DNA from: Pedobacter sp. MC2016-15
GTDB taxonomy: Bacteria; Bacteroidota; Bacteroidia; Sphingobacteriales; Sphingobacteriaceae
DNA: 64,000 nucleotides
Assembly: GCF_026239695.1 (NCBI RefSeq)
Contig: NZ_JAPIVS010000001.1
Location: 124,001 to 188,000 of the forward strand
Direction of reading: 5' to 3'
Below are positions 53,983 through 60,221 of this stretch, in pieces (positions within the stretch are counted from its first letter, which is position 1; each line of letters starts with the position of its first letter). The translations under genes were made by a program, and so were the position numbers. The notes below the pieces were generated by a model. The model was not told the DNA's origin and did no database searches. It saw nothing but the letters and a program-made list of their open reading frames with translations.

Positions 53983-55500
53983 TTAACTGTCTTTTACAGC
54001 AAGGCTAAGTACATGCACAGCCTCTTCCAGCTCTGCTGTAGTCAGGTTTCCAAAACCCAGCCGCATCGCTGTAAAACTTTCATTCTGATAGAGGAGTTCC
54101 TGCGGCAGATAAAGATTTCGCTTCTGACATTTTTTGCTGATCCTCATGAGATTTAATCGTGGATTCCATTGCGTCCAAACCGACAGGCCACCTGGCGGTG
54201 ACACAAAATTCAACTCCTCTCCCAGCTGCTTTTGCAATAAGCCTGTAAATACATCCCTTCGCTCCTGATAAATCTTCAGCGCTTTTTTCAGGTGCCGCTG
54301 AATCTCTCTTTCTTCCAGCAGCTCTGCCAAAGCCTGCTCCATCAGCATATCTCCCTGCCGGTCTACCAGCCGGCGTAGTTTAGCCATCTCCACAATCAGA
54401 TTTTCCGGAGCTACCAGATAGCCCGAACGGAAACCCGGAGCGAGCGACTTGCAGAATGAACCAATATATACAACCATCCCATTCGTATCTGCACTGGCTA
54501 AGGGCAATACAGAGTTCCCGTTGTAATGAAAATCGTAATCGTAATCATCCTCCAGAATGATAAAACCATAGGTAGCAGCAAGTTGCAGCAACTCAGTACG
54601 CCTCTCGGCACTCAGCGTTACTGTGGTAGGATAATGATGATGTGGTGTAAGGTATAACATCCTGATAGATTTCTTTTTACAAAGCTCACGTATAGCTTCT
54701 ACTGAGATACCCTCCTCGTCCACAGGTACAGAAATGATCTTACCTCCACATTGCTGAAAACACATGTTTGCCAGGTAATAGCTTAAATCTCCAACGATAA
54801 CCAGATCTCCTGGTTCAATCAGTATACTGGAGGCCATATAGATACTCATATGTATTCCGCGCGTCGTTAAAATATTGTTTTTGTTGATATGAAGCCCGCG
54901 TGTATTATTGAGGTAAGAAGCCAGAGTTTCGCGAAAAAACTCATTTCCTTCAACATGCGAATAACCGAAGTGCCGGTAGTTGGTTTTACTTTTGAGAATT
55001 CCTCCATATACTTTAGAAAGCCTTTCAAGGGGTAACAGTCTGATATCAGGCAACCCGTCATTAAATTCAAGTCCGGATGTCGCAGTAACAGGAAGCACAT
55101 CCAGTAAAATGCTTTGTTTAAAGGTGTAACCAGTTTTTGAGGGGTAGCTGTTCAGGAATTTTTCGTGGTCATCAGGGCCGCCTTCAGCGGTTTTACGCCG
55201 ATAACTTTTCGGCTGTATTGCCGGCAATGGCACTTTATTGCGTACAAAGGTGCCCTTATTGGGCCTGATCTCTGTCCATCCCTGAGCATCCAGTTCATAA
55301 TAAGCCGCAATAATGGTCTTGCGGTGTACCTCGAGGTCATCCGCAAGGCTCCTCGTGCCCGGGAGCTGTATGCCATCCAGCAGTACCCCCCGCTGAATCG
55401 CATTAATCATCTGATGGGCAATCTGCAGGTATACTGGTCTGTCCAGCGACTTATCAATGCGGATTACACTTTTAAAAGGAATATTAACCGGACTACTCAT
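53983..55500 (-). CDS. MocR-type (GntR/aminotransferase) transcriptional regulator
   Basis: A 505-residue regulator with an N-terminal GntR-type winged helix (about residues 15-88; recognition helix region PGTRSLADDLEVHRKTI) and a C-terminal fold-type I aminotransferase domain (about residues 130-505). The PLP lysine is Lys351 in GSFCKSLAPGFRSG, and LEDDYDYDF precedes it, so it probably still binds PLP. The best-known members are PdxR, GabR and TauR. It is divergent from the biotin operon with 64 bases between, and the intergenic region has a GGTACC core. A role in biotin control is inference from position only. Confidence 0.9.
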   Translation of the reverse strand: MSSPVNIPFKSVIRIDKSLDRPVYLQIAHQMINAIQRGVLLDGIQLPGTRSLADDLEVHRKTIIAAYYELDAQGWTEIRPNKGTFVRNKVPLPAIQPKSYRRKTAEGGPDDHEKFLNSYPSKTGYTFKQSILLDVLPVTATSGLEFNDGLPDIRLLPLERLSKVYGGILKSKTNYRHFGYSHVEGNEFFRETLASYLNNTRGLHINKNNILTTRGIHMSIYMASSILIEPGDLVIVGDLSYYLANMCFQQCGGKIISVPVDEEGISVEAIRELCKKKSIRMLYLTPHHHYPTTVTLSAERRTELLQLAATYGFIILEDDYDYDFHYNGNSVLPLASADTNGMVVYIGSFCKSLAPGFRSGYLVAPENLIVEMAKLRRLVDRQGDMLMEQALAELLEEREIQRHLKKALKIYQERRDVFTGLLQKQLGEELNFVSPPGGLSVWTQWNPRLNLMRISKKCQKRNLYLPQELLYQNESFTAMRLGFGNLTTAELEEAVHVLSLAVKDS

Positions 55501-55540
55501 AAACTAAAAACTGGTACCATTAAACTATCCGGCAAGATAA
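55501..55540. promoter_or_regulatory. possible MocR operator between regulator and biotin operon
   Basis: The intergenic region holds CTGGTACCAT at 55511-55520, a palindromic GGTACC core, and a shorter TTTGGTCAAAC at 55545-55555. MocR proteins often bind repeated TGG-type half sites (as I recall for TauR and PdxR), so this is a candidate operator. No direct evidence. Confidence 0.35.
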
Positions 55541-55548
55541 TACTTTTG
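55541..55548 (+). promoter_or_regulatory. -7 element of the biotin operon
   Basis: TACTTTTG is an exact match to TAnnTTTG, 16 bases before the ATG at 55565. It overlaps the putative regulator-binding region. Confidence 0.6.
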
Positions 55549-55564
55549 GTCAAACATTATCACT

Positions 55565-56191
55565 ATGGAACTGGAAGAACTACTCAATCATATCGTCGGC
55601 AATGATTACATACATGCTCGTTTTCTCAATACGCTGTCGCTGCAGGAAAATATCGGCGCACGTAAGATCTCAGCAAACGAACTGCCGGAAACATCAACAT
55701 ATATGGTCTTAAAACATGCCGCAGAAGAACACCGCCATGCTTTTTATCTGAAAAAACAAATCGGGAAGTTGAATACTGAAGCATGTCCTACTTATGAACC
55801 GCAGTATCTGCTGGCGCCCTACAGCAGCAAATATTACCTGAATAAACTGGATATGTCTACGAGTCGTTATCTGATGGAGCATATGAATCTGCGTGGTGCC
55901 AGGCTGAAATTTGCGGCATACCTGCTGGTAACCTATGCTATTGAAGTTCGTGCAGATCTGATCTATCCTGTTTATCAGGAAATACTCAGCAAAAATAGCA
56001 GTAAGGTGAGTGTGCGCTCGATCATTCTCGAAGAACAGGGTCACCTGGAAGAAATGATCGCCCAGCTGAGGACCTTTTCGGCTGACTGGGAATTTCATGC
56101 AAACAACATCATTTCTGTGGAGAAGAATCTCTACCAGAACTGGATCAATGACCTCGCGGCAGCGATTCAGGAGGAACACCAGCTATCCTGA
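55565..56191 (+). CDS. ferritin-like diiron protein, first gene of the biotin operon
   Basis: A 208-residue helical, soluble protein. It has the full ferritin-like diiron ligand set: Glu28 (SLQENIG), Glu55 and His58 (AAEEHRHAF), Glu127 (YAIEVRAD) and Glu157 with His160 (LEEQGHLEEM). The ligand spacings, 27 and 30 residues between paired helices, fit a four-helix diiron oxygenase or oxidase. I do not recognise a named family. It is followed by bioF after three bases, then bioD, bioB and bioA, with no internal promoter seen. No known biotin gene encodes a ferritin-like protein, so it could serve in making the pimeloyl precursor or in protecting or supplying iron. Confidence 0.85.
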   Translation: MELEELLNHIVGNDYIHARFLNTLSLQENIGARKISANELPETSTYMVLKHAAEEHRHAFYLKKQIGKLNTEACPTYEPQYLLAPYSSKYYLNKLDMSTSRYLMEHMNLRGARLKFAAYLLVTYAIEVRADLIYPVYQEILSKNSSKVSVRSIILEEQGHLEEMIAQLRTFSADWEFHANNIISVEKNLYQNWINDLAAAIQEEHQLS

Positions 56192-56194
56192 GAC

Positions 56195-57337
56195 ATGTTG
56201 GAAAATCTCACAGACATACTAAACACCAAATTGAATGAGCGTACTGCTGCCGGAAACTTACGTAAGTTACAGCATGAAAACGCTTTATATGATTTTAGCT
56301 CAAATGATTATTTAGGTTTTGCAAGATCACCGGAACTCAAAGAAAGTATATCAGCGGAGCTGGAAAAACATCCTCTGACATTACTCGGTGCTACCGGATC
56401 ACGCTTGCTCAGCGGGAATACGGCCTTTGCAGAACAACTGGAAAAAGAACTGGCAATTATACATCAGGCAGAAAATGGACTGATCTTCAATTCCGGTTAT
56501 ACAGCCAACCTCGCCCTGTTTTCCAGCGTACCGCAAAAAAACGATACGATCATTTACGATGAACTGATCCATGCATCAGTCATAGACGGCTCCAGGCTGA
56601 GTCTGGCAAAAAGACTAAAATTTAAACACAATGATCCCGAAGATCTGGAAAAAAAGATCAGGCTCAGCACAGGACAGTGTTTTGTGGCCGTTGAAAGTGT
56701 CTATTCAATGGAGGGCGACCTGGCCGATCTTCTGCAAATCGCTGCTGTGTGCAGAGATTTGAATGCACATCTGATCGTTGATGAAGCTCATGCCTTTGGC
56801 GTATGGGGCACCGGCTTAGTCGACCTGCTCAAACTTCATCAGCATGTATTTGCAAGGCTGGTTACTTTTGGAAAAGCACTTGGATTACATGGAGCAATCA
56901 TTTTGGGTAGCAATTTATTAAAAGATTACCTCATCAACTTTGCCCGTCCTTTTATTTACAGTACAGCTACCCCTTTCAGTCAGCTGTTGGCCATAAAGAT
57001 CGCTTATGAGCGACTTTTAAGCCGCCCGGAGGATCAGCTAAGACTTAGGGATAAGTCCTCGCTTCTGAAAGCGCATATGCCCTCCCAGGATAAACTCATC
57101 AGCAGTCTCAACCCTTCAGCCATCCAGTGCATATACCCCGGAGACAATGCAAGGGTCCTGCGCTTTGCTGCTAAGCTGCAAAAACAGGGCTTCGATGTAA
57201 GGGCCATACGCAGTCCTACAGTCCCTGCAGGGAAGGAAAGATTACGCATCTGCCTGCATCTCCACAATAGCGATGAAGAAATTCTGGCGCTTTGTGATCA
57301 ATTTCATCAACTGACCCACACACATTATGCGAAATAA
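56195..57337 (+). CDS. bioF: 8-amino-7-oxononanoate synthase
   Basis: Joins pimeloyl-ACP (or pimeloyl-CoA) with alanine to give KAPA, using PLP. The 380-residue protein has the family signatures YDFSSNDYLGFA (about residues 31-42), GATGSRLLSGN, VDEAHAFGVWG and the PLP lysine segment VTFGKALGLHGA. Its start codon follows the diiron gene by three bases and its end overlaps bioD by 11 bases, so it is tightly embedded in the operon. Confidence 0.95.
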   Translation: MLENLTDILNTKLNERTAAGNLRKLQHENALYDFSSNDYLGFARSPELKESISAELEKHPLTLLGATGSRLLSGNTAFAEQLEKELAIIHQAENGLIFNSGYTANLALFSSVPQKNDTIIYDELIHASVIDGSRLSLAKRLKFKHNDPEDLEKKIRLSTGQCFVAVESVYSMEGDLADLLQIAAVCRDLNAHLIVDEAHAFGVWGTGLVDLLKLHQHVFARLVTFGKALGLHGAIILGSNLLKDYLINFARPFIYSTATPFSQLLAIKIAYERLLSRPEDQLRLRDKSSLLKAHMPSQDKLISSLNPSAIQCIYPGDNARVLRFAAKLQKQGFDVRAIRSPTVPAGKERLRICLHLHNSDEEILALCDQFHQLTHTHYAK

Positions 57338-57944
57338 ACCTCTATTTGTCACCGGCATAGGTACATCCGTAGGCAAAACTATAGTTTCGGCTGTACTCTG
57401 CGAGCAGCTGAAAGCAGATTACTGGAAACCTGTACAATCAGGGGATCTTGATCATTCAGATAGTGATCAGGTCAGGAGACTAATCAGTAACTGCCGTACC
57501 ATTATTCATCCTGAAACCTTCAGACTGAACCTTGCGGCCTCGCCACATCAGTCGGCCAGACTGGAGGGAATTCAGATCAATCGGGATGCGTTTCATCTTC
57601 CTGTAACAGATCATCAGCTGCTGATCGAGGGTGCGGGAGGTTTGTTTGTACCCCTGGCTTCAGGATTTTTGATGTCAGATCTGATCACTCAGCTTGAAGC
57701 AGAGGTAGTGCTGGTTGTCAGGGATTATCTGGGCTGCATCAATCACACCTTACTGAGCCTTCATGCGCTGGCTACTTTACAGATTCCAATCAGACATCTG
57801 ATACTCAACGGGAATTTCAATCCGGACACAAAAGCAATTATTCTTGAGCATATCCCAGCCGGTAGCAGTTGGAGTCAACTCCCGGAATTAGCCAGGCTGG
57901 ATCAAGGATCAGTATCAAATTCTCCAATACAAATAGCTGGATAG
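57327..57944 (+). CDS. bioD: dethiobiotin synthetase
   Basis: Makes dethiobiotin from DAPA, CO2 and ATP. The 205-residue product has the P-loop [16 protein letters not shown] (residues 8-23), the substrate motif YWKPVQSG and [10 protein letters not shown]. It overlaps the end of bioF by 11 bases and is followed by bioB after 22 bases. Confidence 0.94.
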
Positions 57945-57966: not shown

Positions 57967-58959
57967 ATGAACAATTACATTAAAAACGACTGGACCGTCC
58001 AGGAGATAGAAAACATTTACCATCAGCCCTTACTGGAGCTGGTATATCAGGCTGCAACAGTTCACAGGATGTACCATAAGCCGGATGAAGTGCAGGTTTG
58101 CACGCTGCTTTCCGTAAAGACCGGCGGATGTCCTGAGGATTGCTCTTATTGTGGACAGGCGGCGCGTTACCATACCGGGATCACCGTAAAATCGCTAATG
58201 TCAAAAGAAGATGTGGTAGCGATAGCGCAGCGCGCCAAGGACGCAGGATCTTCCCGTTTCTGCATGGCTGCGGCATGGCGCGAAGTTCGGGATAACCGTG
58301 ACTTCGAAAACATTCTGCAGATGGTAGAAGGTGTAAACGACCTCGGACTTGAAGTATGCTGCACGCTGGGGATGCTCACAGAGAGTCAGGCCCAGCGTTT
58401 ACAGGAAGCAGGTTTACATGCCTATAACCATAATCTGGATACTTCCAAAGAACATTATGAAGAGATCATCACTACAAGAACTTTCGACAACAGGCTGGAT
58501 ACACTCACCAATGTGCGTAAAGCAGGTATCACCGTATGTTCAGGGGGTATTATAGGTCTCGGGGAAACACATGCTGACCGGATCAACATGCTGCACACCC
58601 TGTCTACCTTACCAAAACATCCGGAATCAGTACCGGTAAATGCCCTGGCGCGTGTAAAAGGCACACCGCTGGCCGACCTGCCGAAGGTAGACTCATGGGA
58701 GATGGTGAGAATGATTGCTACTGCAAGAATTCTGATGCCACAATCAATGGTGAGGCTCAGTGCAGGACGTGCAGAGATGACTACAGAAGAGCAGTCATGG
58801 TGTTTCATGGCTGGGGCAAATTCGATATTTACGAGTGAAAGTGAAGAGCTGCTGGTTACACCAAACCCGCGACTGGATGACGACAGGAAAATGTTCAGCC
58901 TGCTGGGATTAAAACCTATGGTAAAGGAAAAATCATCACAAATCACAGCTAAGGCATGA
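57967..58959 (+). CDS. bioB: biotin synthase
   Basis: Radical SAM enzyme inserting sulfur into dethiobiotin. The 330-residue protein has the three cluster cysteines in [12 protein letters not shown] (CX3CX2C, around residues 54-61), CMAAAWRE, and [18 protein letters not shown], all standard. The last four bases overlap the bioA start codon (ATGA). Confidence 0.97.
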
Positions 58960-60221
58960 CTTTAACTAAAAGGGATGCTGAAGTCATTTGGCATCCTTAC
59001 ACACAACAACTTATGGCACGCCCACCCTTACCGGTAATACGTGCCGAAGGGGCGTCATTATATGATGAACACGATCGCCGCTACATTGATGCAGTATCCT
59101 CATGGTGGGTAACACTGCATGGACATTCACATCCTTACATCGTGCAGCGGGTTACTGAACAGCTGAAAAAACTTGATCAGGTCATCTTTGCCGGGTTCAC
59201 ACATGAGCCCGCGATTGAGTTGGCAGAGGCGCTGCTTAAAATTCTACCAAAACAGCAAAAGAAGGTCTTTTACACTGATAACGGATCAACGGCTGTAGAA
59301 GTGGCCTTAAAAATGTGCCTTCAATACTGGTATAACAAGGGACAACCCAGAAAGAAAGTCCTTGCCTTCAGCAACGGTTACCATGGTGACACTTTTGGCG
59401 CCATGTCTGTGAGCGGAAGAAGCGCCTGGACTGCTCCTTTTGATTCTTTTCTCTTCGAAGTGATCTTTATCGACACGCCGGCAGCACAAAACCTGGCTTC
59501 TCTAAAAGAAACCATATCGTCACACGCAGATGATCTGGCCTGCTTTATCTATGAGCCCCTGGTACAAGGTTCTGCAGGAATGCTGATGTGTGCTGCCGAA
59601 GACCTTGACCAGTTGCTCCAACATTGCAGGGATGAAGGTGTGCTGATGATTCAGGATGAAGTGTTCACGGGATTTGGCCGCACCGGGAAAAACTTTGCTG
59701 CTGATCACCTTGTGAACAAGCCGGATGTGATGTGTTTTTCCAAAGGGCTTACCGGAGGGACTATGCCGCTTGGCCTTACTACCTGCAGTACTGAAATTTA
59801 TGAGGCGTTTCTATCAGAGGATAAGATGAAGACGCTTTTTCATGGCCATTCGTTTACAGCAAACCCACTGGCCTGTACAGCGGCGCTGGCCAGTATCGAA
59901 CTTTTATTACAGGATGAAGCACAGGAGAATATCCGGCGTATCAGCAGCAGACATCAGCTGTTCTTAAAAGAGCTCATTGATCACCCCAGAGTTGCATCTG
60001 TGCGTCAGACCGGGACAATTATTGCCATAGAATGGAAAACCGAATCAGGAACTTCTTATTTTTCTGAATTGCGAAACCTGCTGTATGACTACTTTTTGGA
60101 TAAAGGTATTCTGATGAGGCCCCTGGGCAATGTGATTTATATCCTGCCACCCTATTGTATCAGCAATGAAGATCTGGATACGATTTATGCAGAAATCAGG
60201 AAGGCTCTGGAAATATTTTAA
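58956..60221 (+). CDS. bioA: adenosylmethionine-8-amino-7-oxononanoate aminotransferase
   Basis: Transaminates KAPA to DAPA with S-adenosylmethionine as amino donor. The 421-residue protein has IWHPYTQQ near the N-terminus, [12 protein letters not shown], the PLP lysine in [13 protein letters not shown], and [17 protein letters not shown]. It overlaps bioB by four bases. Convergent with the following gene, whose stop codon overlaps bioA by four bases. No terminator seen between them. Confidence 0.96.

Follow-up and report, generated by a model that had tools for sequence, protein, structure and literature searches.

Described BioE systems and the locus under study

BioE, a non-haem diiron oxygenase, cuts long-chain acyl-acyl carrier protein (acyl-ACP) or acyl-coenzyme A (acyl-CoA) at C7-C8 to give pimeloyl-ACP or pimeloyl-CoA; the reaction requires O2 and an electron donor and bypasses BioC-BioH in Escherichia coli, according to Zhang et al. 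(2025, 'Balanced Expression of the Diiron Oxygenase BioE...', PMC12915131). That paper deals with BioE of Elizabethkingia, Chryseobacterium and Chlamydia psittaci. It reports iron content, the cleavage reaction and the rescue of E. coli bioC/bioH mutants for BioE homologues, states that the exact catalytic mechanism needs more work, and describes BioL, a MocR-type repressor of BioE that senses 8-amino-7-oxononanoate (AON) and has R50 and K340 as key residues. Its distribution of BioE, with a search rule of >40% identity and >85% coverage to the protein EmBioE, includes the Sphingobacteriaceae (PMC12915131). Here we analyze a window of 64,000 nucleotides from Pedobacter sp. MC2016-15 (contig NZ_JAPIVS010000001.1, positions 124,001 to 188,000), a portion of a 5.14-Mb assembly, and within it the gene at 55,565 to 56,191, which we call bioE. 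The discovery paper on the family is reportedly that of Xu et al., PNAS 2025. The closest named relatives among the matches listed belong to Pedobacter.

A BioE-family protein at the head of the operon

The enzyme family has been published before (PMC12915131), and the window protein is a further member of it. We put at roughly 0.93 the probability that this ferritin-like protein cleaves long-chain acyl-ACP, and perhaps acyl-CoA, at C7-C8 with O2 to supply a pimeloyl thioester to BioF. The basis of this assignment is the ligand spacing, the conserved pocket, the setting in a bio operon, the loss and retention of the gene together with bioB, and a genome in which no BioC above cut-off, BioW or P450 was found. 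A preliminary description of the DNA had proposed a diiron oxygenase making the pimeloyl precursor, with an outcome like that of the P450 BioI; this agrees with the published BioE, and the function is predicted for the protein studied here. Its accompanying premise, that diiron proteins are absent from the known biotin pathways, is outdated, BioE having been published in 2025 (PMC12915131).

All six diiron ligands named in that description (E28, E55, H58, E127, E157 and H160) were found in the 208-residue product. Their spacing, 27-3-69-30-3, equals that computed from the published ligand numbers, which are E26, E53, H56, E125, E155 and H158 in EmBioE and E41, E68, H71, E140, E170 and H173 in CpBioE (PMC12915131). 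The six residues are invariant in all 23 aligned homologues of a first alignment (A1) and in 10/10 members of a wider second one (A2). L24, Y119 and I126 are identical to the EmBioE pocket residues L22, Y117 and I124, and I133 replaces EmBioE L131 at a position occupied by I or L throughout both alignments. Two Chryseobacterium indologenes proteins, which come from a BioE genus and were used for this comparison rather than EmBioE, share 55-56% identity with the window protein over its full length. The window protein is 57% identical to a Chryseobacterium homologue obtained from the phylum search (genome G265, locus L087), whose product is exactly a C. contaminans protein.

The AlphaFold2 model is a helical bundle with a mean predicted local distance difference test score of 88.9 and a predicted template-modelling score of 0.86, in which the diiron ligands sit on helices or at helix ends. 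Since it has eight helical elements, the earlier term 'four-helix' holds if the ferritin-like core is meant and fails for the whole protein. When the model was searched against the PDB with Foldseek, no match was obtained at E <= 0.001, and F-BAR domains and a designed protein ranked first; in an aligned second comparison, the top solved-structure matches were diiron ferritin-like enzymes. A sequence search for solved relatives returned none up to E 1. The family models of Pfam and NCBIfam were unmatched by the protein up to E 1e-3, and those of Pfam also up to E 1. The ferritin-like fold is a prediction from the model.

In the mechanism that we propose by analogy, BioE would cut a C14-C18 acyl thioester at C7-C8 by means of the predicted diiron centre and O2, and the resulting pimeloyl thioester would pass to BioF and start biotin synthesis. 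BioL would repress at the common bioL-bioE promoter region. The electron donor would be a general cellular redox protein, because the operon encodes none. The locus extends the BioE-BioL module of 2025 to another lineage, which has a gene order and a regulator of its own.

Operon setting and genomic distribution

The features of the locus, on window coordinates, are as follows.

53983..55500, minus strand: bioL candidate, MocR-type, with a GntR helix-turn-helix and a class I/II aminotransferase domain; R50 in LPGTR, pyridoxal phosphate (PLP) lysine K351 in GSFCK
55509..55535, plus strand: operator-like motif AACTGGTAC-N10-TCCGGCAA between bioL and bioE, a candidate by conservation
55541..55548, plus strand: predicted promoter element TACTTTTG, 16 bases 5' of the bioE start codon, fitting the Bacteroidota -7 promoter consensus TAnnTTTG
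55565..56191, plus strand: bioE, 208 residues, ATG start, TGA stop at 56189-56191, predicted ferritin-like diiron oxygenase
56195..57337, plus strand: bioF, 8-amino-7-oxononanoate synthase; best model TIGR00858, at 338 bits below its cut-off of 426
57327..57944, plus strand: bioD, dethiobiotin synthase; TIGR00347 above cut-off
57967..58959, plus strand: bioB, biotin synthase; TIGR00433 above cut-off
58956..60221, plus strand: bioA, 7,8-diaminopelargonic acid (DAPA) aminotransferase; TIGR00508 above cut-off

Open reading frames (ORFs) and NCBIfam matches bear out the earlier placing of bioE as the first gene of an operon in the order bioE-bioF-bioD-bioB-bioA, on one strand and with small gaps or overlaps; as had been described, three bases separate the bioE stop codon from the bioF ATG at 56195.

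The preliminary description made its proposal depend on homologues lying beside biotin genes. A scan of genome contigs gave 339 relatives, and among the best 80, which were retained for neighbourhood counts, 76 have a bio gene within 250 bases of bioE on the same strand (bioA in 61, bioF in 11, bioB in 4). The four others are L018, where bioE lies at a contig edge, and the Mucilaginibacter loci L032, L034 and L039 (9444-10612). In these three, bioE remains behind the usual NUDIX gene and the bioA normally lying between them is gone; the cation-efflux and NUDIX genes usual upstream of bioA, both named by eye, are kept. A bio gene also adjoins bioE in nine of ten further loci (L083-L092). The exception is L085 (409-2103, genome G214), where bioF faces bioE in convergent orientation, with a 60-base overlap of the two 3' ends.

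A separate arrangement was seen in Pedobacter polysacchareus, P. gandavensis and their kin (L003, L004, L009, L010), where bioL is divergent from a bioE-bioB pair alone. In the sequence retrieved around the pair, which reached up to 10 kb on either side, bioF, bioD and bioA are missing. TIGR00858 matches several paralogues per genome, with 0/11 above the cut-off, which left the position of bioF uncertain in these genomes.

The distribution of bioE follows that of biotin synthesis genes. Among 151 genomes of the family, BioE was found in 80 and bioB above cut-off in 104: both genes in 78, BioE alone in 2, bioB alone in 26 and neither in 45. One of the two genomes with BioE alone (G378) holds a remnant, a 120-codon ORF (L145, 6618-6980) in which approximately the first 54 bioE codons are joined directly to the last part of bioB, apparently through a single deletion that removed the intervening operon; the other (G431) is 7% contaminated. 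Within the window's genus, 13 of the 20 sampled genomes carry both bioE and bioB, and seven carry neither.

In the window's genome, no BioC was found above cut-off (the best match to the BioC model, E 5.7e-19, lies below it and is not among the long matches defined below), and searches for BioW and for P450 (BioI) gave nothing at E <= 0.001. At the scale of the phylum, an even draw of 296 genomes contained BioE in 11 and BioC above cut-off in 61, with long matches of 126-172 bits in 35 more. Because TIGR02072 at E <= 0.001 matches all 296 genomes and 14/14 controls (general methyltransferases), only these 61 and 35 were counted as BioC-like; the lower limit was chosen by us at a gap above 102.5 bits, and the 35 include one fragment at a contig end (G157). 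The suggestion that BioE genomes lack the usual route held for BioC, since none of the 11 is among these 96 of 296 (Fisher p 0.019, uncorrected for ancestry); no BioH search was made. This amounts to a genome-scale test of the module, in which bioE tracks bioB (20 genomes of one genus) and 11 bioE genomes are without a BioC-like gene.

Among the 26 family genomes with bioB above cut-off and no BioE, BioW is likewise absent from all. As bioA is above cut-off in 20 of them and not in the other six, not all need be biotin makers. Three (G122, L141; G365, L142; G432, L143) hold an apparently intact bioB-bioF-bioD-bioA cluster, with bioF and bioD named by eye, which leaves their pimeloyl source unexplained; G122, the only one of the 26 so examined, is also without BioC. 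For all 26 genomes, a substitute for BioE was sought around the best bioA match, using the ORFs of these 26 loci and longer stretches from six of the genomes, and no consistent candidate emerged. Another pimeloyl source may exist in such bioB-bearing relatives.

The divergent regulator and a candidate operator

We infer that the divergent MocR gene is BioL. Its product would repress the operon from a binding site, AACTGGNAC-N10-TCCGGCAA, that precedes the bioE promoter element, which gives a named candidate for the BioL operator. The regulator beside the Chryseobacterium bioE of L087 has R50 and a lysine at 340, the published BioL numbers, and K351 of the window protein aligns with this K340. 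We aligned the bioL-bioE gap of the window with those of 22 relatives (15 loci, L002-L013, L015, L036 and L044; five from the Chryseobacterium group; one from a different family; and one from the window's own family but a different genus), and the core AAACTGG-n-AC ... GGCAA ... TA-n-TAC-n-TTT is invariant in 23/23 gaps. The exact AACTGGNAC-N10-TCCGGCAA occurs a single time in the window's genome, at the bioL-bioE gap. Allowing up to 3 mismatches gives 60 matches in the genome versus 34 for a reversed control, so that weak matches carry little meaning.

A BioL-like gene (at least 45% identity) is adjacent to bioE in 15 of the best 80 loci and in 7 of the ten further ones. When 14 BioE genomes were searched with the window BioL, the window's genome returned its own copy and Pedobacter hartonius an 88% identical one; of the other 12 genomes, four had a best match of 42-46% identity, seven had one below 30%, and in one it was a broken gene with identity of up to 52%. 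Since a second MocR gene in the window's genome is itself 40% identical to BioL, the matches of 42-46% may be other MocR proteins. At L013 (9678-10001), the conserved bioL operator-promoter is separated from bioE by approximately 260 additional bases with short tandem repeats, the latter recognized by eye.

Carrier-facing residues

In the published models, the residues facing CoA or ACP are F24, R31, K32, K46, R87, Q88 and H91 in EmBioE, and F39, K46, K47, K102, Y103 and D106 in CpBioE; the chlamydial CpBioE uses ACP substrates only, and EmBioE also burns acyl-CoA, the published idea of why BioL is needed (PMC12915131). The window BioE has L26, R33, K34, V48, K89, Y90 and N93 at the carrier-facing positions. 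Its K89-Y90 pair equals K102-Y103 of CpBioE and not R87-Q88 of EmBioE, and each of the two residues is kept in 19 of the 23 A1 homologues; L26 and N93 match neither enzyme. It is conceivable, although we regard it as doubtful, that BioE of the Pedobacter-like lineage is restricted to acyl-ACP like the chlamydial enzyme despite the adjoining BioL, the K89-Y90 match being a hint of such use and not a test. If it were true, the need for BioL against acyl-CoA burning, as conceived for EmBioE, would fail, and the role of BioL would be one of general thrift.

Alternative explanations

A diiron oxygenase of the biotin operon might take a different step, such as conversion of free fatty acid to pimelate or a reaction after BioF, and the published work leaves some room for this, as only homologues were tested and the BioE mechanism is said to need more work (PMC12915131). 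However, BioW, the activator of free pimelate, was not found in the genome, the later steps are already supplied by bioF, bioD, bioB and bioA, and the pocket and ligands of the window protein match those of the published enzyme; we consider such a role very unlikely. It is also highly improbable that a MiaE-like tRNA hydroxylase or an aldehyde deformylating oxygenase lies in the bio operon by chance, given sequence identities of only 12-17%, no match to a Pfam or NCBIfam family, and a genomic setting and pattern of loss that track the biotin genes. Naming the protein after either enzyme by fold alone was rejected, as their family models, which Pfam contains, are unmatched.

A third possibility is that bioE encodes a small protein of the ferritin or rubrerythrin kind, acting on iron or peroxide, that shields the iron-sulphur clusters of BioB. 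Homologues are named 'rubrerythrin' in some databases, one of the ten A2 members weakly matches rubrerythrin in Pfam (E 0.0094), and bioE lies immediately 5' of bioB in 4 of the best 80 loci. Yet in 61 of these 80 bioE adjoins bioA, with bioB not in the fetched stretch, and such a protein would leave the genome with no BioC above cut-off, BioW or P450 as another source of the pimeloyl thioester. We find this explanation barely credible, and a BioE that supplies pimeloyl thioester remains our preferred reading.

Comparison with known systems

The P450 BioI of Bacillus subtilis likewise converts acyl-ACP into pimeloyl-ACP by oxidative cleavage (PMC12915131). BioI is a haem P450, whereas the window BioE, in which Pfam detects no cytochrome P450 domain, is predicted from its ligands to be a non-haem diiron protein. 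Cyanobacterial aldehyde deformylating oxygenase and MiaE have the predicted fold in common with it, and differ in their substrates as well as in the low identity and unmatched models noted above.

The closest resemblance is to BioE of Elizabethkingia, Chryseobacterium and Chlamydia psittaci, which is alike in ligand spacing, pocket residues, position in a bio operon and divergent bioL. The Chryseobacterium proteins, at 202-207 residues and 55-57% identity, are near the window protein in length, and among the carrier-facing residues K46, R87, Q88 and H91 of EmBioE differ from V48, K89, Y90 and N93 here. With the published BioL, the window MocR protein shares a GntR helix-turn-helix with R50, an aminotransferase domain with the PLP lysine, and divergence from bioE (PMC12915131). 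An 11-residue insertion in its linker shifts the PLP lysine to 351, and the intergenic motif of the window is common to Chryseobacterium.
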